A stretch of 64,000 bases of DNA from Halodesulfovibrio sp. MK-HDV. Lineage in GTDB: Bacteria > Desulfobacterota > Desulfovibrionia > Desulfovibrionales > Desulfovibrionaceae. Of this stretch, positions 15,065 through 27,538 are shown piece after piece (within the stretch, counting starts at the first letter, position 1; each line of letters starts with the position of its first letter). Under the pieces are notes generated by a model, which worked only from the letters and a program-made list of their open reading frames with translations, was not told the DNA's origin and made no database searches. The position numbers were made by a program, and so were the translations under genes. The stretch is taken from the NCBI RefSeq assembly GCF_009914765.1, contig NZ_WYDS01000010.1:62001-126000 (forward strand), read 5' to 3'.

Positions 15065-15158
15065 GGAAGCGTTTCGTCACCGGTGTGGCGTCCGGTCTTC
15101 AAAACCGGTGTAGGGCAGTGATGTCCTAGGTAGGTTCGACTCCTATACGCTTCCGCCA
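15065..15158 (+). tRNA. selC: tRNA-Sec (anticodon TCA)
   Basis: A 94-base selenocysteine tRNA including the encoded CCA. It has an 8-bp acceptor stem (GGAAGCGT/ACGCTTCC), discriminator G, anticodon TCA at 15099-15101 in a CTTCAAA loop closed by CCGGT/ACCGG, a long variable arm, and a TTCGACT T-loop. The long acceptor and extra arm exclude an ordinary suppressor tRNA. The terminator at 15168 closes the unit. It implies that UGA is read as selenocysteine in this genome, so TGA-interrupted frames deserve attention. No selA, selB or selD gene is in the window. Confidence 0.97.
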
Positions 15159-16055: not shown

Positions 16056-16073
16056 TGTGAATTAAATCACAAA
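16056..16073. promoter_or_regulatory. TTGTGA-N6-TCACAA operator upstream of the DUF169 gene
   Basis: Perfect half-sites TTGTGA and TCACAA spaced by ATTAAA, extended by flanking A/T to 9-bp arms (ATTTTGTGA/TCACAAAAT). This is the CRP/FNR-superfamily (HcpR-type) pattern. It is also one base away from the Rex pattern TTGTGAA-N4-TTCACAA. It lies ~185 bases before the DUF169 start, a position suited to activation or to repression depending on the unmapped promoter. Confidence 0.7.
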
Positions 16074-16113
16074 ATATTGCACTTATAAAGACAAAATGGG
16101 CACTTTGCTTGTG

Positions 16114-16133
16114 AATTAATGTGACTTAATTCT
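16114..16133. promoter_or_regulatory. second inverted repeat GAATTAA-N6-TTAATTC
   Basis: Seven-base perfect arms around TGTGAC, 40 bp after the first operator. It contains a TTGTGA half-site on its left edge. It may be a second binding site for the same or another regulator, but AT-rich DNA makes chance pairing more likely. Confidence 0.4.
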
Positions 16134-16258
16134 TTATTTCAGTTTTTATTGCTGGTTGTAGGGCCCATTGGTAATTCCACCCTCAGATAACAACAAGCTC
16201 AACCACCAAAACAGGTGGAATGACTGAATCTTCACAAGAAACAAATGGGAGAAGAATC

Positions 16259-17035
16259 ATGTCCGTAGATTTTAAAGAAATGCAAGCAACTTTGATGCGC
16301 GAAATGCGCTTGTATCATTACCCTATCGCCGTAAAATTTTTCTACGACCAGGCTGACGTAGACAAGTACCTCGAAGAAAACGAAGTGCATGTACCTATCA
16401 AGCCAATGACTTACTGTCAGTGGGAAATCGCTGCACGTATGAAAGGTCAGAGCGTATACGCTACTAAAGAAATGCTCTCCTGCTCCAATGCTCATTACAG
16501 CTTCGGCTGGAAAGGTCTTGATGATGCAGAAGTAAAAAGCCACGCAAAATACACTCGTAACCCTGAACAGGCTAGACGTTTTGTGGAAACAAAAACTCAG
16601 ATGCCTGAGGGTATGATTGGTATCGCGGTTATGCCGCTTGCCAGCGCAACCGAAACTCCAGACGTTGTTCACTTCTATGTAGATAACATGCAGGCATACC
16701 ACCTTGCTGTTGACTACATGGCAGGCACAGACACTCATCCGCTTCGCCCTGCAATCACCATGAACTCTTCAGCATGTGGTGGTACTGCTTACTCTTACGT
16801 TGCTAACGAATTCAACATGGTTCCTGCATGTTCCGGTAGCTACAACGCCGGTAAAACAGAACGCGGCGAAATCAACGTTATGATTCCGGGCGAAAAGATG
16901 ATCGCAACTTACGAACGTCTTCTCGAACGTATCGAAGATCTCGGTAGTTCTTCCATCACCAAACCTGGCGACGGCTTCCCGGGTCAGGATGTATGTAAAA
17001 ACTGTCCGCTCATCATCTTCAAAAAGAATAAATAG
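16259..17035 (+). CDS. DUF169 family protein
   Basis: A 258-residue DUF169 protein, a family common in archaea and anaerobic bacteria and without a firmly established function. Seen are the early KFFYDQADV segment, SCSNAHYSFGW near residue 80, a central PLASATETPDVVHFYVD, a conserved ACGGTAYSYVANEF, and the C-terminal CKNCPLI. Several conserved Cys could bind metal or substrate. There is no signal peptide. The start at 16259 has GGGAG upstream. It is the first gene after the operators and precedes a TauE/SafE permease, suggesting a role in handling a sulfur compound; that link is inferred from position only. Confidence 0.85.
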   Translation: MSVDFKEMQATLMREMRLYHYPIAVKFFYDQADVDKYLEENEVHVPIKPMTYCQWEIAARMKGQSVYATKEMLSCSNAHYSFGWKGLDDAEVKSHAKYTRNPEQARRFVETKTQMPEGMIGIAVMPLASATETPDVVHFYVDNMQAYHLAVDYMAGTDTHPLRPAITMNSSACGGTAYSYVANEFNMVPACSGSYNAGKTERGEINVMIPGEKMIATYERLLERIEDLGSSSITKPGDGFPGQDVCKNCPLIIFKKNK

Positions 17036-17050
17036 TCTTTGTAATATATC

Positions 17051-17074
17051 GGAGCGGTACGCACATACCGCTCC
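17051..17074 (+). terminator. intergenic hairpin GGAGCGGTA/TACCGCTCC
   Basis: A perfect 9-bp stem with a 6-base loop just after the DUF169 gene, without a proper T run (TCTTAT follows). It is more likely a partial terminator or mRNA-stability element within the operon, leading into the permease gene. Confidence 0.55.
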
Positions 17075-17078
17075 TCTT

Positions 17079-18273
17079 ATGGAACGCAATTTACGTGAGG
17101 AGGTACACGTTGTTTCCAGCAAACGTAATTGGGTAAGTCTTACCCTACTCGCTGCAGCTATTCTGCTTGTTTTTTCTCAGCCCGCATTGGCTGACCGCCT
17201 TTCTGATGCAATTAACGCTACCCCAAAAGGTACTGGCGTTGGCGAAATCAATACTTCTGCTGCTACCGGCTTCTTAGGCATTCCGGGCGCACCATCTGTT
17301 AACCTCGTCATCGGCTTCTTCTGGGCTATCTGGGTTGGTTGGATTTTCTCTACTGTTGGCGCATTCGGCGGCATCATGGCTGGTGTTGGTCACATCACCA
17401 TCTTCGGTTTTGGTGACTACGCATCCAGCTTTAAAAAAACAGTCCCCTGTACTCAACAAACTGGTAACTGACTCCATCCGAGTTTCTAACCAGTGGCTTG
17501 TTGGTACTTCCGCGGGCATGTCATCTTTCAACTACTTCAAAATGGGCCGCCTTGTACTCCCACTGGGTCTTTCCCTCGCAACCGGCTCCATTTTGGGTTC
17601 TTACCTTATTCCTTGGCTCACCGCAGGCCAGATTTCCCTTAAAGCGTACATCGGCTACTTCGGCCTGTTCGTACTCTTCTTAGGCTGCTACCTGCTTTAC
17701 GAAACCACTCCACGTGGTCAGGCAAACAAAAAACAGGCTAAAGAAGCAGCACGTGCTTTTGAAGCCACTATTAAAGAAGAACGCTCCGGCGCCGCTGTTG
17801 ATACCTCTAGCCTTGGTGTAAAAGTTGTTTCTTTCGCTCCAACTAAATGCGTATTCACATTCTACGGCGTTGAATTCTCCTTTAACCCACTCGTACCAGT
17901 ATGCGGCGGTTTTGTTATCGCTGGCCTTGCTTCCTTCCTCGGTGTAGGCGGCGGCTTCCTTCTGGTACCATTCCTTACAAGTGTTGCCGGTCTCCCTATG
18001 TACCTCGTAGCTGGCACTTCTGCACTGGCAGTACTCGTAGGTATGACCACATCAATCTTCACTTACATGGTAGTTAAAGATACCCCGGTATTCTGGCCTC
18101 TCATCGGTGTTGAACTCATTGGTGTACTCGTAGGTTCCTTTATTGGCCCACGCACCTCCAAGTACATCCCTGAAATCTGGCTCAAACGCCTCTTCATCTT
18201 CCTCGCCTTCTACGTTGGTATCCGCTACGCATCTAAAGGCTTCCTTGGAATAGCAGTTCTGCCTCCATTCTAG
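17079..18273 (+). pseudogene. TauE/SafE sulfite-exporter-family permease, frameshifted in an A7 run
   Basis: Two frames make one permease of about 397 residues. Frame one gives an N-terminal hydrophobic segment (LTLLAAAILLVFSQPALA) and GFFWAIWVGWIFSTVGAFGGIMAGVGHI, ending soon after FKKT. Frame two resumes at SPVLNKLVTDSIRVSNQ and runs through the second TauE/SafE half (GLASFLGVGGGFLLVPFL) to 18273. One extra A in the A7 run at 17433-17439 accounts for the break. TauE/SafE proteins move sulfite, sulfoacetate or related organosulfonates, and several sulfate reducers use family members next to sulfur genes. No good ribosome site precedes ATG 17079; a strong GAGGAGG at 17097 lies inside the frame, so the true start is unsure. 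Confidence 0.85.
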
Positions 18274-18288
18274 CCAACACAGCATTCA

Positions 18289-18320
18289 TCGGGAACGAAG
18301 CACTCTTGCTTCGTTCCCGA
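18289..18320 (+). terminator. strong 14-bp hairpin after the permease gene
   Basis: TCGGGAACGAAGCA and TGCTTCGTTCCCGA pair perfectly around a CTCT loop. ACATTACT follows, not a T run, so termination may be only partial or the element may protect the upstream mRNA 3' end. Confidence 0.65.
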
Positions 18321-18377
18321 CATTACTAACAATTTGCACTTACGCAGATTGCGACATTTTTTTTTGAGAGGTAACGC

Positions 18378-19070
18378 ATGGATATGCAGAGTATTTTTTT
18401 CGCACTCGACCCCTTCTTTATTGCCCCGTACCGTTGGATCAGTAATCCGGATATGGCTATATGGATGGGCTCTTTAGTGATGGGGCTCTGGTGCGTTTTT
18501 GCAGGAGAACTTTCATCCATCCTCATCTATCGTGTGAACAGAGCATATTATTCACGCCTTAATGAAAAGATGGTACATATGCACAACCTCTCCATTGAGG
18601 CTATTAAGATAAAGGATAAAGCCAACTTTAAGGCTGCAAACACATGGGCAAACGAATACTTTGGTAAAGTGTTCTTTGCACAGGCAGCATTTTTTGCGGT
18701 TTCCCTATGGCCTGTTCCTTTTGCTCTCGGCTGGATGCAAACACGTTTCACAGGTGTTGACATTATTAGCATTCCTATGATCTCTCTTGACTTCGGTAAG
18801 TTCAGCCTTACCAACCTAAGTACAGATTTTATATCTTCTACAACATTCACATTGGGATACGCTTTTGTACTCCTTACAAGCTATATTGCTTTACGATACC
18901 TGTTGTACAAAACACGTAAATTCATTCCTGTCCTTCGTAATATTGAAGCCATGCGTGAAGAAGATGCTGAACTTATAAGTGATCTCAAATCATGGGAAGA
19001 ACTTAGTAAAGCTGCTCCAGCGTCTAAGCCAATACAGCAGACGAAAGAAAACACCGTTACTGCAGGATAG
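18378..19070 (+). CDS. three-to-four-helix membrane protein of unknown function
   Basis: A 230-residue protein that I cannot assign. Predicted membrane helices are about residues 26-52 (IWMGSLVMGLWCVFAGELS), 97-116 (VFFAQAAFFAVSLWPVPFAL), and 155-180 (FTLGYAFVLLTSYIALRYLL). A charged helical stretch (IEAIKIKDKANFKAANTWANEY) lies between the first two. This helix, basic hairpin, helix plan is reminiscent of the YidC/Oxa1/DUF106 superfamily, but I see no decisive motif. The C-terminal tail is charged and soluble. A GAGAGG site precedes ATG 18378. It lies between a permease and a binding-protein gene, so it may be a partner of either. Confidence 0.75.
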   Translation: MDMQSIFFALDPFFIAPYRWISNPDMAIWMGSLVMGLWCVFAGELSSILIYRVNRAYYSRLNEKMVHMHNLSIEAIKIKDKANFKAANTWANEYFGKVFFAQAAFFAVSLWPVPFALGWMQTRFTGVDIISIPMISLDFGKFSLTNLSTDFISSTTFTLGYAFVLLTSYIALRYLLYKTRKFIPVLRNIEAMREEDAELISDLKSWEELSKAAPASKPIQQTKENTVTAG

Positions 19071-19126
19071 TCATCCTTATCTTAAGAAGAATAGGACACG
19101 CTCCTGTTCATTTATGAGGTCGTTAC

Positions 19127-20119
19127 TTGAAACAGAAAATGTTGCGTGCACTTTTTTTAACATTCATACTCTGCATTCCCGTTTTTTTACAAGGATGCGG
19201 AGAAGAAGTCCCCGTTGTTAAAGTTGACTTTAGCAAACGGGAATCTGTTAAAGTTCCAGTACCGGAACCTGCAATAACCTACGCCTATTTACCTCAGTAC
19301 TCCCACGAAGTTTCCTACGCTCGTCACAACCCGCTCATCCAGCATCTTGCTAAAGAAACTGGTCTGCCTATGCGTCAGGTTTTTCCTGATACTTTTGCAG
19401 AGCATGTTCGCATGGTGGAACGGGGAGAAATTGATATTTCTTTCTCCAATCCGTTTGTTTATGTGCAATTAACCAAATTGGGCTCCACTGCTTTTGCGCG
19501 TATCAAGGAACCGGATGGACGTCCGACATTCCGCGGCCAGATTATTGTACATGCACAAAACAAAGCAATTCAAACACTCGAAGATGTTATCGGTAAACGC
19601 TGGATTGCGGTTGATCCATACTCCGCAGGCGGCTACCTTTACGCGCTCGGATATTTTTTAGATCACGGCATCCACGCTCATAATTTTAGAGAAATTGCTT
19701 TTGCCCCCGGCCCGGGCGGTAAACAGGAAAAAGCCGCACTCGCAGTCTACGCCGGGAAATACGACGTGGCATCTGTTCGCGAAGGCGCACTTGATACTGT
19801 AAAAGATAAAATAAACTTGCAGCACATTCGTGTGCTGGCAGTGACTCCGGAATATCCGGGGTGGGTATATTCAGCCAGAAACGGCATGAACAAAGAGATC
19901 GTTTCAAAGATTGCAGAGGCTATGTTCAGACTTTCCATGGACATTCCCTCTGAAGCAGCAATCCTTAAAAATGCGCGCACCAGCGGTATCATTCCGGCCA
20001 CAGATTCCGATTATGATGCTGTGCGTACTCTTATTCAGAAAATAGAAGCGGATAGAATTACATCAAAGCTTCAAGACGTACCTCCACTACCAGCGCAGCG
20101 GGTGTCAAATGCTGAATAA
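19127..20119 (+). CDS. PhnD-like phosphate/phosphonate-type binding lipoprotein
   Basis: A 330-residue substrate-binding protein of the PhnD/phosphonate-binding superfamily. The N-terminus is a lipoprotein signal with lipobox LQGC (Cys 24). Then come YAYLPQYSHEVSYARHNPLIQHLAKETGL, a DIFSNP-type strand (EIDISFSNPFVYVQL), IGKRWIAVDPYSAGGYLYAL, and GKYDVASVREGALD. The start codon is TTG 19127 with GAGG upstream. No permease or ATPase partner of the phosphonate ABC type is nearby. It overlaps the histidine-kinase gene by 11 bases, so it more likely acts as the kinase's periplasmic sensor subunit than as a transporter part, as TorT-like proteins do. Confidence 0.85.
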   Translation: MKQKMLRALFLTFILCIPVFLQGCGEEVPVVKVDFSKRESVKVPVPEPAITYAYLPQYSHEVSYARHNPLIQHLAKETGLPMRQVFPDTFAEHVRMVERGEIDISFSNPFVYVQLTKLGSTAFARIKEPDGRPTFRGQIIVHAQNKAIQTLEDVIGKRWIAVDPYSAGGYLYALGYFLDHGIHAHNFREIAFAPGPGGKQEKAALAVYAGKYDVASVREGALDTVKDKINLQHIRVLAVTPEYPGWVYSARNGMNKEIVSKIAEAMFRLSMDIPSEAAILKNARTSGIIPATDSDYDAVRTLIQKIEADRITSKLQDVPPLPAQRVSNAE

Positions 20120-22157
20120 AATAAGCACAATGCGTTTTCGTACAAAACTTAATGCGGGAATGAGTTTAATCATCATTTCCCTTTCACTTATGCTTGCCGT
20201 TGTAGTTACCCAAATCGCAACAAACTCGCTCGTACACGAAACTAAACGACGCGGGCAGGTACTGGCGGATAACATCGCGCTGCGTACAACAAGCTCCATG
20301 CTTTCCGGCGATCTTTTGCAGATGAAGGAAATGGTTGATGAGCTACGCACTGTCGATAAAGATGTTGCTTACGCGTTCCTTGTAAACATCGACAACCAGA
20401 TTCTGGCGCATACGTTTACAAACGGCTTTCCCGTTGATTTAAAATACGCCAACATTATCACAGAAGACGCCCAGCCTTCCATCCGCCTCGTTGATACCGG
20501 CTCCGATAAATTTTATGACTTTGCCGTCCCAGTTACAGCTGGAGGACTCGTCATCGGACAAGCACGTCTGGGACTATCCAGAAGTCAGGTACAAAGCGTT
20601 GTTAACGGGCTTATTCTTACCATCTCTATCGTTACCGGTATCACACTGATCATCAGTCTTGCCATCTCAACGCAGTTTGCACACAAAATCACGTATAGAC
20701 TCGGGATGCTCGGCAAATATGCTGAAAGCATTGTCCGTGGTGAACTCAATCTAAACCAGACCTCCGGTCTCAACAGAAACTGTTGGGAAGTCTATAAGTG
20801 CGAGCAAACAGAATGTCCGGCTTACGGCAATACAGACAGGCGATGTTGGCAATTTGGCGACACGCTGTGCACAAACTACTGTAGCAACAAGTCCGCACGT
20901 GATTTGGATAACTGCGAAGAGTGCCCTGTTTTTGCCAGAAACTCCGGTGATGAAATTCATGAACTTGCAGAAACATTCGATGTCATGTCTCTTTCGCTGC
21001 GAGGACATATTGCTGAGCTTGAAGAAGCTAAAACTGATCTGACACAGCAGCAGGAAATTTTACGTACCATCTTTGAATCCAGCCCTGACCAGTTGTCTTT
21101 AATAGACAAGGACGGCACATATGTTTCCGTCAATCAGGCGTTTGCATCCTTTGTAAGTAAATCCAAAGAAGCGATTGTCGGTAAAAAGGAATACGAAATT
21201 CCTTCATTGTTAAATACAGCCGACACTCTTCAGGAAACAAAACAGATAATCAGCACAAGCAAACCTGTTAACCGTGAAGTGCGTATCGTACTGGAAGACG
21301 GTTCACGAAAATGGTTTAACGTGCTGAAGGTTCCTGTGCATGATGAGCATAAAAACTCTATCGGAGTTCTCGGCACAGCCCGTGATATCACGAACGTAAA
21401 AGATTACCAGAACCAGCTCATTCATTCACAGAAGCTTGAATCCATTGGTAAACTGGCAGGCGGCGTTGCTCACGAAATCAACACCCCGCTTGGCATCATC
21501 CTTGGATACTCACAGCTATTACAGGAAGATTTTCCTGAAGATGAGCAGGTACATAAAGATTTGATCGTGGTTGAGAAGCAGGCAAAATTCTGCCGCAAAA
21601 TTGTCGCAGACCTGCTTGATTTTTCACATCAGACAAAAAGTGAAAAGAAAGAAATGTGCTTCAACAACTCCATCATGGAAGTTGTTCAGCTTGTTCGACA
21701 CGCATTCAAACTGGATAATGTAGCCATCATCCCACATCTGGATGACAGGCTTCCTATTATCTATGGCAATCCTGAACAGTTAAAACAAGTATGGATGAAC
21801 CTTATGTCTAATGCTATTGAAGCAATAGGTCATAATGGTGTGATTAATATTCACACCGAACTTGATATTAACGTCGGAACCATAACCGCATGGTTCTCCG
21901 ATTCCGGTACCGGCATTGCGACGAATGACATCGACTCAATTTTCGATCCATTCTTCAGCACAAAGCCCGTAGGAAAAGGAACGGGGTTAGGTCTTTCAGT
22001 TTCGTTCGGCATCATTCAGGATCACGGCGGACGAATTTCTGCCATCAGCCCAGCTTCCAAACGTTTACTGGAAGACGATGCTACCCGCACAGAAAACTGG
22101 GGACCGGGAACATCCTTTAAGGTTGTTCTTCCGTTAGATGAAATTGGATACGAATAA
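20109..22157 (+). CDS. membrane PAS sensor histidine kinase with Cys-rich insert
   Basis: A 682-residue sensor kinase. Membrane helices at about 17-40 and 158-182 enclose a ~115-residue periplasmic domain. A HAMP-like linker follows, then a Cys cluster (NCWEVYKCEQTECPAYG, RRCWQFGDTLCTNYC, NCEECPVF; nine or so Cys) that could hold an Fe-S cluster or zinc. Next is a PAS domain (about 315-425), the dimerisation/phosphoacceptor motif GGVAHEINTPLG (His near 455), and an HATPase domain with NLMSNAIEA, FSDSGTGI and GKGTGLGLSVSFGI. It overlaps the PhnD-like gene and precedes a receiver gene, so these three form one signalling unit. The ligand is unknown. Confidence 0.93.
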   Translation: MLNKISTMRFRTKLNAGMSLIIISLSLMLAVVVTQIATNSLVHETKRRGQVLADNIALRTTSSMLSGDLLQMKEMVDELRTVDKDVAYAFLVNIDNQILAHTFTNGFPVDLKYANIITEDAQPSIRLVDTGSDKFYDFAVPVTAGGLVIGQARLGLSRSQVQSVVNGLILTISIVTGITLIISLAISTQFAHKITYRLGMLGKYAESIVRGELNLNQTSGLNRNCWEVYKCEQTECPAYGNTDRRCWQFGDTLCTNYCSNKSARDLDNCEECPVFARNSGDEIHELAETFDVMSLSLRGHIAELEEAKTDLTQQQEILRTIFESSPDQLSLIDKDGTYVSVNQAFASFVSKSKEAIVGKKEYEIPSLLNTADTLQETKQIISTSKPVNREVRIVLEDGSRKWFNVLKVPVHDEHKNSIGVLGTARDITNVKDYQNQLIHSQKLESIGKLAGGVAHEINTPLGIILGYSQLLQEDFPEDEQVHKDLIVVEKQAKFCRKIVADLLDFSHQTKSEKKEMCFNNSIMEVVQLVRHAFKLDNVAIIPHLDDRLPIIYGNPEQLKQVWMNLMSNAIEAIGHNGVINIHTELDINVGTITAWFSDSGTGIATNDIDSIFDPFFSTKPVGKGTGLGLSVSFGIIQDHGGRISAISPASKRLLEDDATRTENWGPGTSFKVVLPLDEIGYE

Positions 22158-22313
22158 TCTATCTGAATCATACAAAACGTCGAGAATTGCTAACTGGCGA
22201 TGCTATTCATTAGCAGCTTCTTATACAATTCTCACAACGTTTTTTGCATACAGTCTGAGCAGCAGGTGTTGTCCTGCTGTCTGCGCTTACCTTACGCTAA
22301 CAAGGAAATAGCT

Positions 22314-22679
22314 ATGGCAATAATCATGGTACTCGATGATGTTATTGACGCAGGCATTCTCATCAAACGCATTTTAGAACGCAAAGGGCATTCTGTAATG
22401 GTTTTTACAGATGAAGAAGAAGCCCTGACCTTTGCCCAGCAGGACACGCCCGACCTTGCGATTCTAGACATTAAACTGCGCAAAATGACCGGAGTAGAAG
22501 TTTTGGCAGAACTCAAAACTCGTTCACCTAAAACACAAGTCATCATGCTTACAGGGTATCCGACACTGGAAACCGCTCGTGAATCTCTCAAACTTGGTGC
22601 TAATGAATACTGTGTAAAACCAATCGATAAAGAGGAACTGGAAAACAAAGTACAGGAAGTACTCGCCGCGGCGTTGTAA
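22314..22679 (+). CDS. stand-alone response-regulator receiver protein
   Basis: A 121-residue single receiver domain, CheY/Spo0F-like, with no output domain. The phosphoacceptor Asp is in LAILDIKLRKMTGVEVL, the Thr in VIMLTGYPTLETA, and the Lys in YCVKPIDKEEL. The acidic pocket appears as DDV at the start (VLDDVIDAG). Start at 22314 follows an AAGGAAA site. Lacking an output domain, it must pass phosphate or contact another protein; the kinase upstream and the PEP-synthase-like protein downstream are candidates. Confidence 0.92.
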   Translation: MAIIMVLDDVIDAGILIKRILERKGHSVMVFTDEEEALTFAQQDTPDLAILDIKLRKMTGVEVLAELKTRSPKTQVIMLTGYPTLETARESLKLGANEYCVKPIDKEELENKVQEVLAAAL

Positions 22680-22700
22680 ACAACGCGGGTACGTTCTGTA

Positions 22701-22792
22701 GAACGGGCAAACACTTCGGGATGATGTAAACCAACATCCTACTCCCGAAACACTCTCTCCGGTTGCGCGAGAGTTTTCATCTTTGCCCGTTC
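22701..22792 (+). ncRNA. predicted three-way-junction RNA structure between the receiver and PEP-synthase-like genes
   Basis: An 11-bp perfect closing stem (GAACGGGCAAA at 22701 with TTTGCCCGTTC at 22782) encloses two hairpins. One pairs TTCGGGA (22715) with TCCCGAA (22743), plus GATG/CATC. The other pairs ACTCTC (22752) with GAGAGT (22769). The layout resembles a structured leader or cis-regulatory RNA 98 bases before the downstream start codon. No known riboswitch consensus was recognised. Folding was done by eye. Confidence 0.5.
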
Positions 22793-22889
22793 CCCCTAAA
22801 AGTATTTTCCTGCGCACTGTATGTACAGCTGCGTTCTTTCCCCTTTCTATCGGCTTGAATTTTAAACTTACACAGAGTTCAGAGGGATT

Positions 22890-25337
22890 ATGTTTATCAC
22901 AGAGCTATTTAAGCACTGGACATTCCGGGCGTTTGCTCCGGGAACTCTTTTGCGCACAAAATACAATGCCTTCAAAGAACTCTTACGACTCGACGAACGC
23001 TGTCTGGAACACATAGCTGATCTGGAAGAAATTCATTACGGCCGCGAGCAGGCAGACTGGACACGCGTTGTATGGCTGACCGAAGAGCTTGGCCGTGATA
23101 TCCGTAGCCTTATCGAACAGCTACAGCTTATGAGCCCTGTAAAGTACATGGACTTGCAGGACTACGCCACAAAACTCAACTTCTATGTTCGCATGGGAGT
23201 AAGTGTGGAAGAGCCACACATTGAGCCACCTTTCGTATTCACACTTCCTGAAGCACAAGACATGCTTGAAGCCGCTGGCGGCAAAGCAGCAAACCTTGCA
23301 CGCATCAGTTCCGAAAAAGACATCAATCTTCTTCCGGCACGCGTCATATCCGCCCATGCATACCATTATTTTGTAGAAGTAAACGACCTGCGTGAAGAAC
23401 TGGATAAACGCCTGAGTGCTATTTCTCTTGCAGATGCCGCAACGCTGGATGAGCTTGCGCATGAAATGCAGCAACTCATTCTACAGGCAGACATGCCCGA
23501 CCCGATTGCTAACGAGATTGAAATTGCAGCTCTTGAGCTTGGTAAAAACGGCATAAAGCTCGCAGTGCGCTCCAGCGCAGTTGCAGAAGATGGAGCAGCC
23601 TCTTTTGCCGGACAGTACTCTTCAGTCCTCGATGTGACAGCGAATAATATTATTCAGGCATGGAAAGAAGTTGTCGCGTCCAAGTACACCCCGCGCGCAA
23701 TCGCATACCGCATTATGAATGGCCTTGCAGACACCGAAACACCGATGGCTGTTCTTATTATGCCGATGGTAGACGCAGTATGCTCCGGCGTTGCCTTCTC
23801 TACTGCTCCAGCAGAACATGCTGCACATTTGGATGAACCGGCAGTCGCTGTGTACGCAACTTCAGGAATCGGTGAAAAACTGGTTTCCGGCTCCGTCACA
23901 GCACAAACTACCTTCATCAGCAAAGCTGAAAAGCCACGCATTATTGAAAAAGCAGCGCAGAGTGTTGTTCCTGCACCGACGCTCAAACGCATCGCAGCCC
24001 AAGCGCAGCAGCTTGAAACATTTTTCGGGGAACCGCAGGATGTTGAATGGGTCGTAGACCATCGCAGCAGAATTTTTATCGTACAAAGCAGACCTGTACC
24101 GCATAGCAGACGTCCGCAGCAAACAGAATGCCCAGCACATGACTTACAGGCTCTTGATACCAACAAAGAATGTGCTTCCATGGGCATTGGTAGCGGCAAA
24201 GTGCGCGTTGTAGCAAACTGTCAGGATATTACAGAACTACCGCACGGAACCATTCTCGTAACACGAGGGTTGGGGCCTGTACTCACACGCGTTATTCATC
24301 GCCTTAACGGTGTAATTGCAGAACGTGGCAGCGCGGCTAGTCACTTTGCATCAGTCGCACGTGAATTCAATGTACCTGTCCTTTGCGGTGTCGAAGATGC
24401 ATGCACTCGCTACACAAACGATCAGCTCATTACTGTAGACGGCACAACAGGATCAGTCTTTGACGGCGTACTGCCTGAATGTCATCAGGAAAACATAAAA
24501 CCTCAGCAAGGCGTTATTCCGCGTCTTGGCAAAGTTCTGCCACGTATTGCGCGTCTGACATTACTAGATCCTTCATCCGAATCTTTTGCTCCTGAATATT
24601 GCAAATCACTTCATGATCTTGTCCGCTTCGTCCACGAAAAAGGTGTAGAGGAAATGTTCTCCCTTGTGGACAAATCAAGCCGCGGTCTTTCCGGTTCCCG
24701 CAAGCTGCAAACACACCTGCCACTGAGCATGTATGTATTGAACCTTGATAAAGGACTCTTCCATTCAGCGGCTGGCAAAAAGGAAGTGGAACAAAGCGAT
24801 ATTGCCTCCGTTCCTATGTGGGCATTATGGTTTGGTCTTTCTTCAGAGCTGGTAACATGGCATGATGCGCTTCCACATTTTGACTGGGAACACTTCGACA
24901 AAGTAAGTGCCGGTATAATCTCAAAAGATTCACCGCTTCTGGCAAGCTATGCAATAATCTCTGATAACTACATGCATGCCATGTTACGGTTCGGCTATCA
25001 CTTCTCAGTTGTGGACTGCATGTGCGGCGACAAAGACAGACAAAACTACATCCGCTTCCGTTTCATGGGCGGTGGTGGTAAATCGCACCAGCGCACGTTA
25101 CGACTTGATTTTATCGAACGTATTCTTTCCAAAAACAACTTTGCCATAGAGCGTAAAGGCGACATGCTCAATGCACGTCACGGAATGGAAGAAGAGCACA
25201 TTATCCAGCAGCGCCTTGCTCTGCTAGGGTTGCTTCTTGCCAAAACGCGTATGCTCGACATGCGTCTTGAAGAAACGAGCGACTTAGACGCCCTTGAAAA
25301 AGAATTTTTCAAAGACCTCGGGAGCCTTACCTATTGA
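22890..25337 (+). CDS. PEP-synthase-like protein (PPDK_N ATP-binding plus PEP-utiliser domain)
   Basis: An 815-residue protein built like phosphoenolpyruvate synthase/PPDK but without the C-terminal PEP-binding barrel. An N-terminal helical region (1-110) precedes an ATP-grasp-like PPDK_N domain with GGKAANLAR near 130, LAVRSSAVAEDGAASFAGQYSS near 220, and MPMVDAVCSGVAFST. The mobile phosphohistidine domain has TRGLGPVLTRV and ERGSAASHFASVAREFNVPVLCG, with the catalytic His retained. The final ~280 residues are not recognised. Such architecture occurs in rifampin phosphotransferase and other PEP-synthase-like kinases, so phosphorylation of a small molecule or protein is plausible. It overlaps a phosphatase gene by 4 bases. 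Confidence 0.85.
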   Translation: MFITELFKHWTFRAFAPGTLLRTKYNAFKELLRLDERCLEHIADLEEIHYGREQADWTRVVWLTEELGRDIRSLIEQLQLMSPVKYMDLQDYATKLNFYVRMGVSVEEPHIEPPFVFTLPEAQDMLEAAGGKAANLARISSEKDINLLPARVISAHAYHYFVEVNDLREELDKRLSAISLADAATLDELAHEMQQLILQADMPDPIANEIEIAALELGKNGIKLAVRSSAVAEDGAASFAGQYSSVLDVTANNIIQAWKEVVASKYTPRAIAYRIMNGLADTETPMAVLIMPMVDAVCSGVAFSTAPAEHAAHLDEPAVAVYATSGIGEKLVSGSVTAQTTFISKAEKPRIIEKAAQSVVPAPTLKRIAAQAQQLETFFGEPQDVEWVVDHRSRIFIVQSRPVPHSRRPQQTECPAHDLQALDTNKECASMGIGSGKVRVVANCQDITELPHGTILVTRGLGPVLTRVIHRLNGVIAERGSAASHFASVAREFNVPVLCGVEDACTRYTNDQLITVDGTTGSVFDGVLPECHQENIKPQQGVIPRLGKVLPRIARLTLLDPSSESFAPEYCKSLHDLVRFVHEKGVEEMFSLVDKSSRGLSGSRKLQTHLPLSMYVLNLDKGLFHSAAGKKEVEQSDIASVPMWALWFGLSSELVTWHDALPHFDWEHFDKVSAGIISKDSPLLASYAIISDNYMHAMLRFGYHFSVVDCMCGDKDRQNYIRFRFMGGGGKSHQRTLRLDFIERILSKNNFAIERKGDMLNARHGMEEEHIIQQRLALLGLLLAKTRMLDMRLEETSDLDALEKEFFKDLGSLTY

Positions 25338-26485
25338 TTGACCCGCGCCCGCTTATTACACGCATACGCACTAGCGCTTCGCACATTGCCTCCAGCATGT
25401 TGCAAGCCGTTTCGTATACAGCGCCTCCCAGTGCCTCGGATCACCCATCATTTCCGGTGCACTGGGTTTCCTCGCGTCTTGCGCTTGGCCCAGCGCCCAG
25501 CACACAACGGCATTTTACGGCAATCAAAGAACAAAAAATATCCTGTATTCTCAACCTATGCGCAGAAATGAAAGAACTGCCAGCATTGGAAGAAAAAGCA
25601 GGATTTGAAGTCTATTTTCTTCCCATCGAAGACGAAGAAGCACCAGAGCTGGAACAACTCGATAAGGCTCTAGACTGGCTCGACGAACAACTCTTCCTCG
25701 GCAAGCACGTTTACATTCATTGCAGACACGGCATAGGCCGCACCGGAACCGTGCTCAACGCCTACCTTCTTCGCAGAGGGCTAGGACACAAGCGCGCGGC
25801 AAAAGTACTGCACAAACTTCGTGCAGAGCCGACAAACTTTACTCAGTGGCGCACCGTACGAAAATACGGAGCACAAAATGCTCAACTCAAAATCAAAACG
25901 CCTACTCTAGAGTTTGGTGAAGACACCGCCATGTCTCTTGAGCCATTCCTTACTGACTACCATCATCTACAAGAAAGCATTGATGACCAGCTACAGCTGC
26001 ACCAGATAGATTCCCTATGCGGTAAGCTCGACAATGCATGTTGTCACACCTGCGTACCGCTCACGCTTATCGAATCTCTAGCGCTCGCGACGCACCTGAA
26101 CACGTCCATCCCAAGTGCTGCCCGTGCGGACATTATCGAACGAGCCGCTGAGGCAGTTCGTCATGAAAAAGAAAACGCCGAAGGGCTCTCCGGCACATTC
26201 TGTCTATACAACACATCTATATGCTGTCCGCTCCTGAAAGATGGCACATGTCTCTTATACGAATATCGCCCCCTGCGCTGTCGTCTCTTTGGCATCACTC
26301 CAGAGTTAGACTCAAAAATATGGGAAGATATTCTTCACAGTCCGCTCGAACATCTTTCGTCACAAGTCTATCTGACCCTGACGAGTACCCTGCCCGACCA
26401 CACAACGCTCATGTTTACCATTCCGGAAGTTCTCTCTGGAAAGTACGTACAGCGCCTCTTTTCCTTTTTGAAAGCTGCAAAATAA
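25334..26485 (+). CDS. dual-specificity/tyrosine phosphatase fused to a YkgJ-type Cys cluster
   Basis: A 383-residue fusion. The first half is a dual-specificity phosphatase with the loop HCRHGIGRTG (Cys near 130, Arg near 136) and a general-acid Asp candidate in LPIEDEEAPEL. The second half carries Cys motifs CCHTC near 235 and CCPLLKDGTCLLYEYRPLRCRLF near 297-319, characteristic of the YkgJ/UPF0153 zinc- or iron-chelating family. The start is TTG in a TTGA overlap with the preceding stop, a sign of translational coupling. Position suggests that it opposes the PEP-synthase-like protein (kinase/phosphatase pair). That is inference. Confidence 0.85.
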   Translation: MIDPRPLITRIRTSASHIASSMLQAVSYTAPPSASDHPSFPVHWVSSRLALGPAPSTQRHFTAIKEQKISCILNLCAEMKELPALEEKAGFEVYFLPIEDEEAPELEQLDKALDWLDEQLFLGKHVYIHCRHGIGRTGTVLNAYLLRRGLGHKRAAKVLHKLRAEPTNFTQWRTVRKYGAQNAQLKIKTPTLEFGEDTAMSLEPFLTDYHHLQESIDDQLQLHQIDSLCGKLDNACCHTCVPLTLIESLALATHLNTSIPSAARADIIERAAEAVRHEKENAEGLSGTFCLYNTSICCPLLKDGTCLLYEYRPLRCRLFGITPELDSKIWEDILHSPLEHLSSQVYLTLTSTLPDHTTLMFTIPEVLSGKYVQRLFSFLKAAK

Positions 26486-26899: not shown

Positions 26900-27538
26900 A
26901 TGGCAACATTACCTGCAAGCGCACTTATTCAGCGTGATAAAGAAACATACCAGATTCGTATTACTCCACCATCCGGTGTTGTAACCGCAGACGAACTTCG
27001 TCAGCTCGCAGATGTTGCGGACAAATACGAAGTACCTCTTCTCAAAATTACTTCCGGTCAGCGTATTGCGCTTTTTGGTCTTAATGAAGAAGACATGGCA
27101 AAAGCAGCTGAAGAAGTACCATTCCGTATTGGTGGTCACTACATTCAGGCTTGCCCTGGTACCGACTGGTGTAAAATGGGTCAGTGCGATTCCTTAGGAC
27201 TCGGCCAGACCCTCAACGAAAAAATCGGCACTCTCGCAACCGCTGCTAAAATTAAAGTCGGCGTTTGTGGCTGTCCTATCGGTTGTTCCGAAAGCCACAT
27301 CCGTGACATCGGCTTCATCGGCGGCAAAAGCGGCTGGACCATGGTAATCGGCGGCAACTCCGGCTCCCGTCCACGCATCGCTGATACTCTCGCAGAAAAA
27401 CTCACCACCGAAGAAGCTCTCGACCTGCTCGATCGTTTCCTTACCCACTACAACGACACTGCTAAGAAAAAGCAGCGCGTAGCACGCTACGTTGAAGAAC
27501 ACAGTATCGAAACCATCCGCGAAGCAATGGGCGTTTAG
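26900..27538 (+). CDS. small assimilatory-type (low-spin) sulfite reductase
   Basis: A 212-residue siroheme-[4Fe-4S] sulfite reductase of the low-molecular-mass Desulfovibrio type. It reduces sulfite by six electrons to sulfide in the cytoplasm. Signature Cys pairs are CPGTDWC near residue 80 and CGCPIGCSES near 120, which ligate the cubane bridged to siroheme. SGQRIALFG near 52 belongs to the sulfite/nitrite-reductase ferredoxin-like half. The length matches the known ~218-residue family, distinct from DsrAB. Start at 26900 after a TTGGAG site. It is a single gene with its own terminator. Confidence 0.93.
   Translation: MATLPASALIQRDKETYQIRITPPSGVVTADELRQLADVADKYEVPLLKITSGQRIALFGLNEEDMAKAAEEVPFRIGGHYIQACPGTDWCKMGQCDSLGLGQTLNEKIGTLATAAKIKVGVCGCPIGCSESHIRDIGFIGGKSGWTMVIGGNSGSRPRIADTLAEKLTTEEALDLLDRFLTHYNDTAKKKQRVARYVEEHSIETIREAMGV

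Follow-up and report, generated by a model that had tools for sequence, protein, structure and literature searches.

The nitrate cluster and its Halodesulfovibrio counterpart

Injecting nitrate is a way of stopping sulfate reducers in oil reservoirs, and because resistant mutants arise in the genes of the so-called nitrate cluster, the native job of this cluster matters. The cluster was described by Korte et al. (2014; PMC4001038) as Dde_0597-0605 in Desulfovibrio alaskensis G20 and DVU0251-0245 in Desulfovibrio vulgaris Hildenborough (DvH). Each of the eight cluster genes listed in Table 3 of that paper gives, when disrupted by an insertion in G20, a fitness above 2 in nitrate. DvH isolates mutated in DVU0251 (the permease TauE), DVU0250, DVU0247 (the receiver) or DVU0246 (the dikinase) grow equally with or without 100 mM nitrate, and the mutant in DVU0245 (the phosphatase) is inhibited by nitrate (PMC4001038). 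Korte et al. suggested a leaky thiosulfate transporter. Nitrate is also a competitive inhibitor of Sat, with an inhibition constant (KI) of 3.60 (PMC9723548). The three-component oxyanion sensors AioXSR, ArxXSR and ArrXSR are related in another respect, since their PhnD-like binding proteins AioX, ArxX and ArrX bind the substrate of the cognate molybdoenzyme (PMC5908839). Here we analyse a stretch of 64,000 nucleotides from Halodesulfovibrio sp. MK-HDV (contig NZ_WYDS01000010.1, positions 62,001 to 126,000; hereafter the window), which carries a counterpart of the nitrate cluster.

The cluster in the window holds the same eight families in the same order as the nitrate cluster, with a DUF169 gene leading as in G20 (PMC4001038, Table 3). 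It is followed by TauE, a membrane protein here called MemP, a periplasmic binding protein, a histidine kinase, a stand-alone receiver, a dikinase and a phosphatase. Gene content and order make this locus the Halodesulfovibrio orthologue of the nitrate cluster of Desulfovibrio, in which DVU0250 corresponds to MemP by position. The original prediction had called the module undescribed, which the published cluster contradicts. The loci differ in that DvH lacks DUF169 and its kinase is a pseudogene (PMC4001038), and in that the permease gene of the window is frameshifted. An operator palindrome, a thiosulfate-reductase-like neighbour and a pseudo-dikinase, all described below, go unmentioned in the parts of PMC4001038 consulted.

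We judge it about an even call that the cluster works as an operon that imports and senses a sulfur oxyanion, with thiosulfate the likeliest, under post-translational control by the dikinase/phosphatase pair. TauE and MemP would together import the oxyanion. The lipoprotein would bind it outside the membrane and signal through the overlapping kinase to the stand-alone receiver, which in its phosphorylated form would act on the dikinase by contact. The phosphatase would oppose the dikinase as an eraser, and importer activity would in this way be set post-translationally. Transcription would be headed by a Rex-type box common with sulfate-activation genes. Nitrate would enter the importer by mistake and inhibit Sat, so that loss of permease, receiver or dikinase gives nitrate resistance. 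The resistant dikinase mutant and the sensitive phosphatase mutant of DvH fit an antagonism of the two enzymes. Post-translational control is favoured because the DvH receiver and dikinase mutants, in which TauE is intact, share the TauE phenotype, and because the receiver has no DNA-binding domain. Our own observations concern gene content, conservation, co-occurrence, the operator and intact active sites; the mutants and the inhibition of Sat by nitrate are published.

Permease and dikinase occur together across genomes, which is new relative to the published nitrate cluster. Among 119 genomes from the window's family, TauE (called at E <= 1e-40 with a profile of 274 of 312 columns, the first alignment row of which, from the window, starts with residues from the shifted frame) is present in 68 and sat in 84, in 83 of them above the family cut-off; 60 genomes encode a dikinase orthologue. 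Both proteins are encoded in 59 genomes and neither in 50, with TauE alone in nine and the dikinase alone in one; the agreement (109 of 119) extends to genomes where the two genes are unlinked. For the 84 sat-positive genomes the corresponding table is 59/9/1/15 (p 1.2e-9, with related genomes treated as independent), and none of the 35 sat-negative genomes has either TauE or a dikinase orthologue. The list of dikinase orthologues was made by hand; a threshold of 400 bits would add three genomes of one genus (G009, G094 and G106), with two more (G050 and G075) just under it. Counting three or five such doubtful dikinases turns the table for all genomes into 59/9/4/47 or 59/9/6/45 and the sat-positive p into 2.9e-6 or 1.3e-4, so that permease or dikinase stands alone in 10-15 of the 119 genomes. 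The doubtful dikinases of one genus (L262-L266; 31-34% identity) score little better with the window dikinase than with its paralogue. Within 20 kb, their five loci hold no receiver, kinase or TauE match above 60 bits, and a phosphatase-like match is found at one of the five. These dikinases stand between orthologue and paralogue. A second PPDK-like dikinase, about 30% identical, follows several kinase and NtrC-type regulator genes elsewhere in the window genome (L093; G000:C8:112800-131600), a further case of a dikinase close to two-component genes. In the congener G079, sat is kept while TauE and the dikinase orthologue are both gone, a joint loss.

Gene neighbourhoods were read at 94 family loci (the window, L093 and the doubtful-dikinase loci are outside this count) and at a named-genome set, the best 80 of 304 confirmed loci, with labels from Desulfovibrio and Desulfobacterales through to Nitrospirota. 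The two sets share some genomes (e.g. L035 and L110) and are therefore non-independent. Neighbours were counted by tblastn; clustering of open reading frames (ORFs), which mixed in antisense ORFs from GC-rich genomes, was used for representatives and one downstream-gene count. A dikinase-like match occurs at 66 of the 94 family loci, with a receiver within 500 bp in 54 and a phosphatase in 52, and a binding protein within 3 kb in 52; in the named-genome set, 25 of 28 dikinase loci have a receiver within 500 bp. At the 71 family loci with TauE, MemP is found within 3 kb in 65 (75 of 80 in the named-genome set), the binding protein in 41 and DUF169 in 17. Two rearranged loci (L061 and L080) have TauE in the opposite orientation, still beside the cluster. 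The family therefore holds a conserved unit, and the conserved neighbourhood and the matching presence pattern place the permease part in the same system as the rest; a single transcript for both, on which the original prediction had been undecided, is possible.

Sensor, receiver, dikinase and phosphatase

The relatives of the binding protein in the Protein Data Bank (PDB) are PtxB, PhnD, ArrX and AioX. As in AioXSR, ArxXSR and ArrXSR, the gene for a PhnD-like binding protein adjoins that of a histidine kinase with no ATP-binding cassette (ABC) genes beside it, the latter as already stated in the original prediction, and a molybdoenzyme is linked at many TauE loci. In contrast to these systems, the receiver of the window has no DNA-binding output, and the apparent output is the dikinase/phosphatase pair. 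The binding protein has cysteines at positions 16 and 24 only, in the signal/lipobox part, and lacks the pocket cysteine of AioX (Cys106), for which reason arsenite sensing of the AioX type was rejected. Phosphonate uptake was likewise rejected, because the cluster has no ABC genes and the binding protein has sensing relatives besides PhnD; nothing but the family name of this protein supports the earlier naming of phosphonate as a ligand.

The H-box and N/G-box residues of the kinase are conserved, as are D52, T80 and K102 of the receiver. PF00072 is the only match in the receiver, which thus has no output domain, in agreement with the original prediction. With the nearest two sisters excluded, receivers are 62-81% identical to that of the window and kinases 41-59%. 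The stronger conservation of the receiver would fit a contact surface on this protein.

The dikinase consists of an N-terminal helical domain, an ATP-grasp domain, a phospho-His domain with His485, and an unassigned C-terminal region (530-815). His485 and the ATP-grasp residues are invariant in 36 of 36 sequences. The predicted model (mean pLDDT 84.6) matches rifampin phosphotransferase and phosphoenolpyruvate (PEP) synthase, and the Foldseek matches listed are dikinases, their parts, pyruvate kinases and ATP-grasp enzymes. The protein resembles PEP synthase, PPDK and rifampin phosphotransferase in its ATP-grasp and phospho-His domains. It differs from them in its own N- and C-terminal regions, in the adjacent receiver and phosphatase genes, and in that a PEP-binding domain was not found: residues 531-815 have no Pfam match, and the PEP synthase model scores 261 against a cut-off of 598. 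PEP synthesis by this enzyme was rejected for lack of a detected PEP-binding domain. Every phosphatase listed has the HC-x5-R motif.

At seven loci (L191-L196, one from each of the six genomes sampled in one genus, and L112, from a metagenome-assembled genome, MAG), the TauE operon carries a pseudo-dikinase from which residues 413-525 are gone. K132, R227 and Q399 are lost in all seven copies, E386 in six and R401 in five, and the N- and C-terminal parts are kept. The L191-L196 genomes also encode a full dikinase next to a phosphatase elsewhere. The presence at the operon of a copy without the phospho-His domain is new here, and retention of its outer parts suggests a docking role beside catalysis.

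A further reading, which we hold less likely than not, is that a stand-alone two-component receiver controls a PEP-synthase-derived dikinase, opposed by a translationally coupled DSP phosphatase, as a post-translational switch of a respiratory oxyanion importer. If this is true, the switch would give bacterial two-component signalling a novel type of output, directly testable with the mutant libraries of D. vulgaris and D. alaskensis, and the pseudo-dikinase of one genus would be its non-catalytic docking version.

Proposed importer, substrate and operator

TauE belongs to the TauE/SafE (TSUP) family: the C-terminal part of the window protein scores 90.3 bits with PF01925 (gathering score 32.6). 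Within this family it differs in forming, with MemP in sulfate reducers, a two-gene unit that is a putative importer. The family had been named correctly in the original prediction, which overlooked a one-base frameshift. The N-terminal half stops at 17471, and the permease resumes in another frame from about 17437. The break lies in an A-run near 17433-17440 and is a one-base length difference from intact sister copies, one of which (L035) is 96% identical to the C-terminal part. We checked the reading frame of 152 TauE genes through both halves, in overlapping locus sets excluding the window, and 151 are open: 145 were clean at once, and six first flagged as broken have stops merely before a later start or at the end. 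The TauE gene of a MAG labelled Rhodospirillales (L124:1484-2566) has an internal stop codon; its taxon label may be a binning error. A programmed frameshift was rejected, because relatives encode TauE in one frame, which favours a real mutation or an assembly error. The window genome (4.17 Mb) is a draft in 54 contigs, which makes a homopolymer error possible.

The best match of TauE to PDB sequences has an E of just 0.89, and the MemP profile has none. PF01956 (EMC3/TMCO1) matches one of 26 MemP members weakly (E 0.092), and the top Foldseek match is the similarly weak 7tut_8 (E 0.23), a chain that we take to be TMCO1. Together, the pattern of MemP and this weak match of its predicted fold hint at the Oxa1/EMC3/TMCO1 superfamily. 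The sulfate and thiosulfate importers of sulfate reducers are incompletely known, as DvH with a triple permease knock-out continues to respire sulfate (PMC7531388). Were the receiver-dikinase switch described above real, TauE-MemP would be a major, overlooked sulfur-oxyanion importer of these organisms. The comparative evidence provides a candidate importer, a candidate substrate class and a candidate regulator.

The strong hairpin previously noted near 18289, between TauE and MemP, is real (z -6.65). Three of three sister loci folded (L035, L111 and L036) have 12-bp stems of differing sequence in the same spacer, with z of -3.95, -4.88 and -3.65, respectively. The 14-bp hairpin of the window was rejected as a simple terminator because no T-run directly follows the stem; in L111 a T-run lies about 8 nt past the stem of that locus. 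The hairpin resembles an element for mRNA stability or processing more than it does a transcript boundary. A second, weak terminator-like site between it and MemP, at 18330-18351, has eight pairs, three of them G-C, and is then followed by T; partial termination before MemP is thus possible, and together with the T-run of L111 it makes attenuation in this spacer possible. Terminator-like sites number 19 in the region against 11.2 in shuffles.

The TauE-MemP pair also occurs in other sulfate reducers, often beside a molybdoenzyme resembling thiosulfate reductase, which is also new. This Phs-like enzyme and/or its Fe-S partner lies within 3 kb of TauE at 39 of 71 family and 45 of 80 named-genome loci. 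A Phs-like gene anywhere in the locus occurs at 40 of 71 TauE loci compared to 0 of 23 dikinase loci without TauE (p 2.6e-7). In the one representative scanned, the best NCBIfam model is PhsA (499.7 bits, under the equivalog cut-off) and the best PDB relative is the thiosulfate/polysulfide reductase 2vpw (348 bits; the next scores 189). In most of its ORFs that were read, the start is near the Fe-S motif and inspection by eye reveals no export signal, unlike in PhsA/PsrA, which makes a cytoplasmic enzyme needing imported substrate likely. No TauE locus has both DUF169 and Phs-like genes within 3 kb (0 of 71 family and 0 of 80 named-genome loci), and DUF169, which has no PDB match, seems to take the place of the Phs-like unit in the window. 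On these grounds we infer that the ligand and substrate class is sulfur oxyanion. At other loci, genes for complex-I/antiporter-type subunits lie upstream of TauE (L115, L136, L140, L144, L197, L198, L200 and L201, and further L204, L205, L207, L208, L212, L220 and L222).

The palindrome upstream of DUF169 matches TTGTGA-N6-TCACAA without mismatch; the genome holds one other perfect site. With up to two mismatches, the operator precedes 39 of 138 distinct TauE transcripts (from 146 regions) compared to 1 of 138 control regions at a distance of 3 kb; when the palindrome was randomly permuted 60 times, with some permutations repeated, the mean was 1.9 and the maximum 9. It occurs at 14 of 19 transcripts led by DUF169, 15 of 53 led by the Fe-S gene and 10 of 66 led by TauE. 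Of the sites in the window genome with at most one mismatch, 15 of 19 were inspected; four one-mismatch sites are next to the genes for adenylate kinase, Mn-pyrophosphatase, AprB and split-Soret cytochrome c, and several of the remainder are internal to ORFs. Sites with up to two mismatches precede sat in 18 of 20 regions chosen from the 84 sat-positive genomes, compared to about 0.3 expected from simple shuffles. A conserved palindrome that heads many such operons and recurs near sat, adk, ppaC and aprB is new here. The window genome encodes one Rex-family DNA-binding domain (PF06971), the Staphylococcus aureus Rex site is TTGTGAAW4TTCACAA (PMC2883068), and Rex represses sat in DvH (PMC6454106, PMC7531388). 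As in a Rex regulon, a Rex-type palindrome stands upstream of the cluster; it is probably a Rex-type box, with a CRP/FNR-type protein as a possible alternative binder. No Rex site at the nitrate cluster turned up in the literature searched, which covers the relevant papers in part.

Competing explanations and cluster layout

Several points weigh against an import-and-sensing operon switched by the dikinase/phosphatase pair. The substrate, the order from kinase through receiver to dikinase, the dikinase target, the transport and phosphotransfer links and Rex as binder are all inferred. The G20 phosphatase mutant, too, is fit in nitrate (+2.08), which a simple antagonism of dikinase and phosphatase would not predict; the pool value of DVU0250 (-5.82) conflicts with the resistant isolate; and in DvH, where the kinase is annotated as a pseudogene, preliminary data indicate that the kinase mutant gains little or nothing (PMC4001038). 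The permease of the window strain probably does not function, barring a sequencing error at the frameshift or a bypass of it, and the weak terminator-like site separates TauE from MemP. The molybdoenzyme is absent from the window locus, with a best genome-wide match of 28% identity, and at other loci the scanned representative falls short of the 694-bit PhsA cut-off. The operator is absent within 350 bp at 99 of 138 TauE transcripts, and the 19 sites with at most one mismatch in the window genome, against 12 for the reversed pattern, are a modest enrichment, which implies that many are chance. If Rex repressed the operon, a rex deletion would be expected to let in more nitrate, but the mutant is resistant, perhaps because Sat rises. 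The presence/absence tests assume independence of related genomes.

Sulfate rather than thiosulfate may be the main substrate, with TauE-MemP as the missing sulfate importer under the sensory chain. We consider this unlikely. All 68 TauE-positive genomes have sat, TauE is absent from the 35 sat-negative ones, operator-like sites are common to sat, adk, ppaC and aprB, and the authors of the DvH triple knock-out state that the three annotated sulfate permeases are not the sole importers (PMC7531388). However, nitrate-cluster mutants grow in lactate-sulfate medium, and unpublished data cited in PMC4001038 are reported to show them mildly sick with thiosulfate. Moreover, 16 sat-positive genomes, the congener G079 among them, have no TauE, and the neighbouring enzyme resembles thiosulfate reductase. 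It is more doubtful still that TauE is an exporter of sulfite or another sulfur compound and nitrate sensitivity an indirect effect, even though the family is named after sulfite export and sulfite is a toxic intermediate of the sulfate-reduction pathway. Loss of an exporter should sensitise, whereas the mutants are nitrate-resistant (PMC4001038), and coupling to a probably cytoplasmic reductase suits import.

The permease pair and a dikinase/phosphatase pair serving carbon or PEP metabolism could also be two systems that share a neighbourhood. The modules are apart in a number of genomes (e.g. L068, L070, L072 and L076), the dikinase descends from the PEP-synthase family, and it occurs without TauE in four to six genomes when doubtful dikinases are counted. 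We nevertheless regard this as improbable, because presence and absence agree even when the genes are unlinked, permease and dikinase mutants share a phenotype (PMC4001038), Pfam detects no PEP-binding domain in the dikinase, and one genus keeps a phospho-His-less copy at the operon. Finally, there is a slim chance that the module is a decaying relic in the window strain, where alone the frameshift is seen, 151 of the 152 TauE genes read elsewhere being open; the other seven genes of the cluster are open frames, and a homopolymer error is possible in a 54-contig draft.

ORFs and Pfam confirm the eight genes on one strand in the order given by the original prediction. The binding-protein and kinase genes do overlap (20109/20119), as do those of dikinase and phosphatase, by 4 bp (25334/25337). 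The phosphatase-YkgJ assignment stands for the DSP domain; the CxxCxxCC/YkgJ match of the C-terminal part is weak (E 0.0091) and under the cut-off.

Table 1 Features of the cluster in the window
Feature	Position	Strand	Basis or remark
Operator palindrome TTGTGAATTAAATCACAA	16055..16072	.	Rex-box-like; CRP/FNR-type as alternative reading
DUF169/COG2043 protein, six conserved Cys	16259..17035	+	PF02596 E 1.4e-50
TauE/SafE-type permease, N-terminal part, premature stop by frameshift	17079..17471	+	
TauE/SafE-type permease, C-terminal part, shifted frame	17335..18273	+	PF01925 E 2e-25
TauE-MemP intercistronic hairpin, 14-bp stem	18288..18320	+	Spacer -34.8 kcal/mol, z -6.65
Weak terminator-like stem, then T	18330..18351	+	Consensus match only
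MemP, membrane protein, ~3 transmembrane segments	18378..19070	+	Hydropathy; no Pfam family
PhnD/PtxB/ArrX-like periplasmic binding protein, probably lipoprotein	19127..20119	+	PF12974 E 2.7e-61
Histidine kinase: sCache_3_2, Cys-rich segment, PAS, HisKA, HATPase_c	20109..22157	+	Pfam
Stand-alone receiver, 121 aa	22314..22679	+	PF00072 only
PPDK-like dikinase: PPDK_N and PEP-utilizers	22890..25337	+	PF01326 E 1.5e-66, PF00391 E 4.8e-19
DSP-type phosphatase (HC-x5-R), C-terminal Cys-rich YkgJ-like region	25334..26485	+	Pfam DSP

Just upstream of the cluster lies a tRNA-Sec gene (15065-15158). Of the 11 molybdoenzyme matches in the window genome, five have a single in-frame TGA, which fits selenoprotein formate dehydrogenases. 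Downstream, 26900-27538 encodes a small sulfite/nitrite-reductase-like protein, whose ORF family comprises six loci, including the window and one duplicate, mostly from Halodesulfovibrio.

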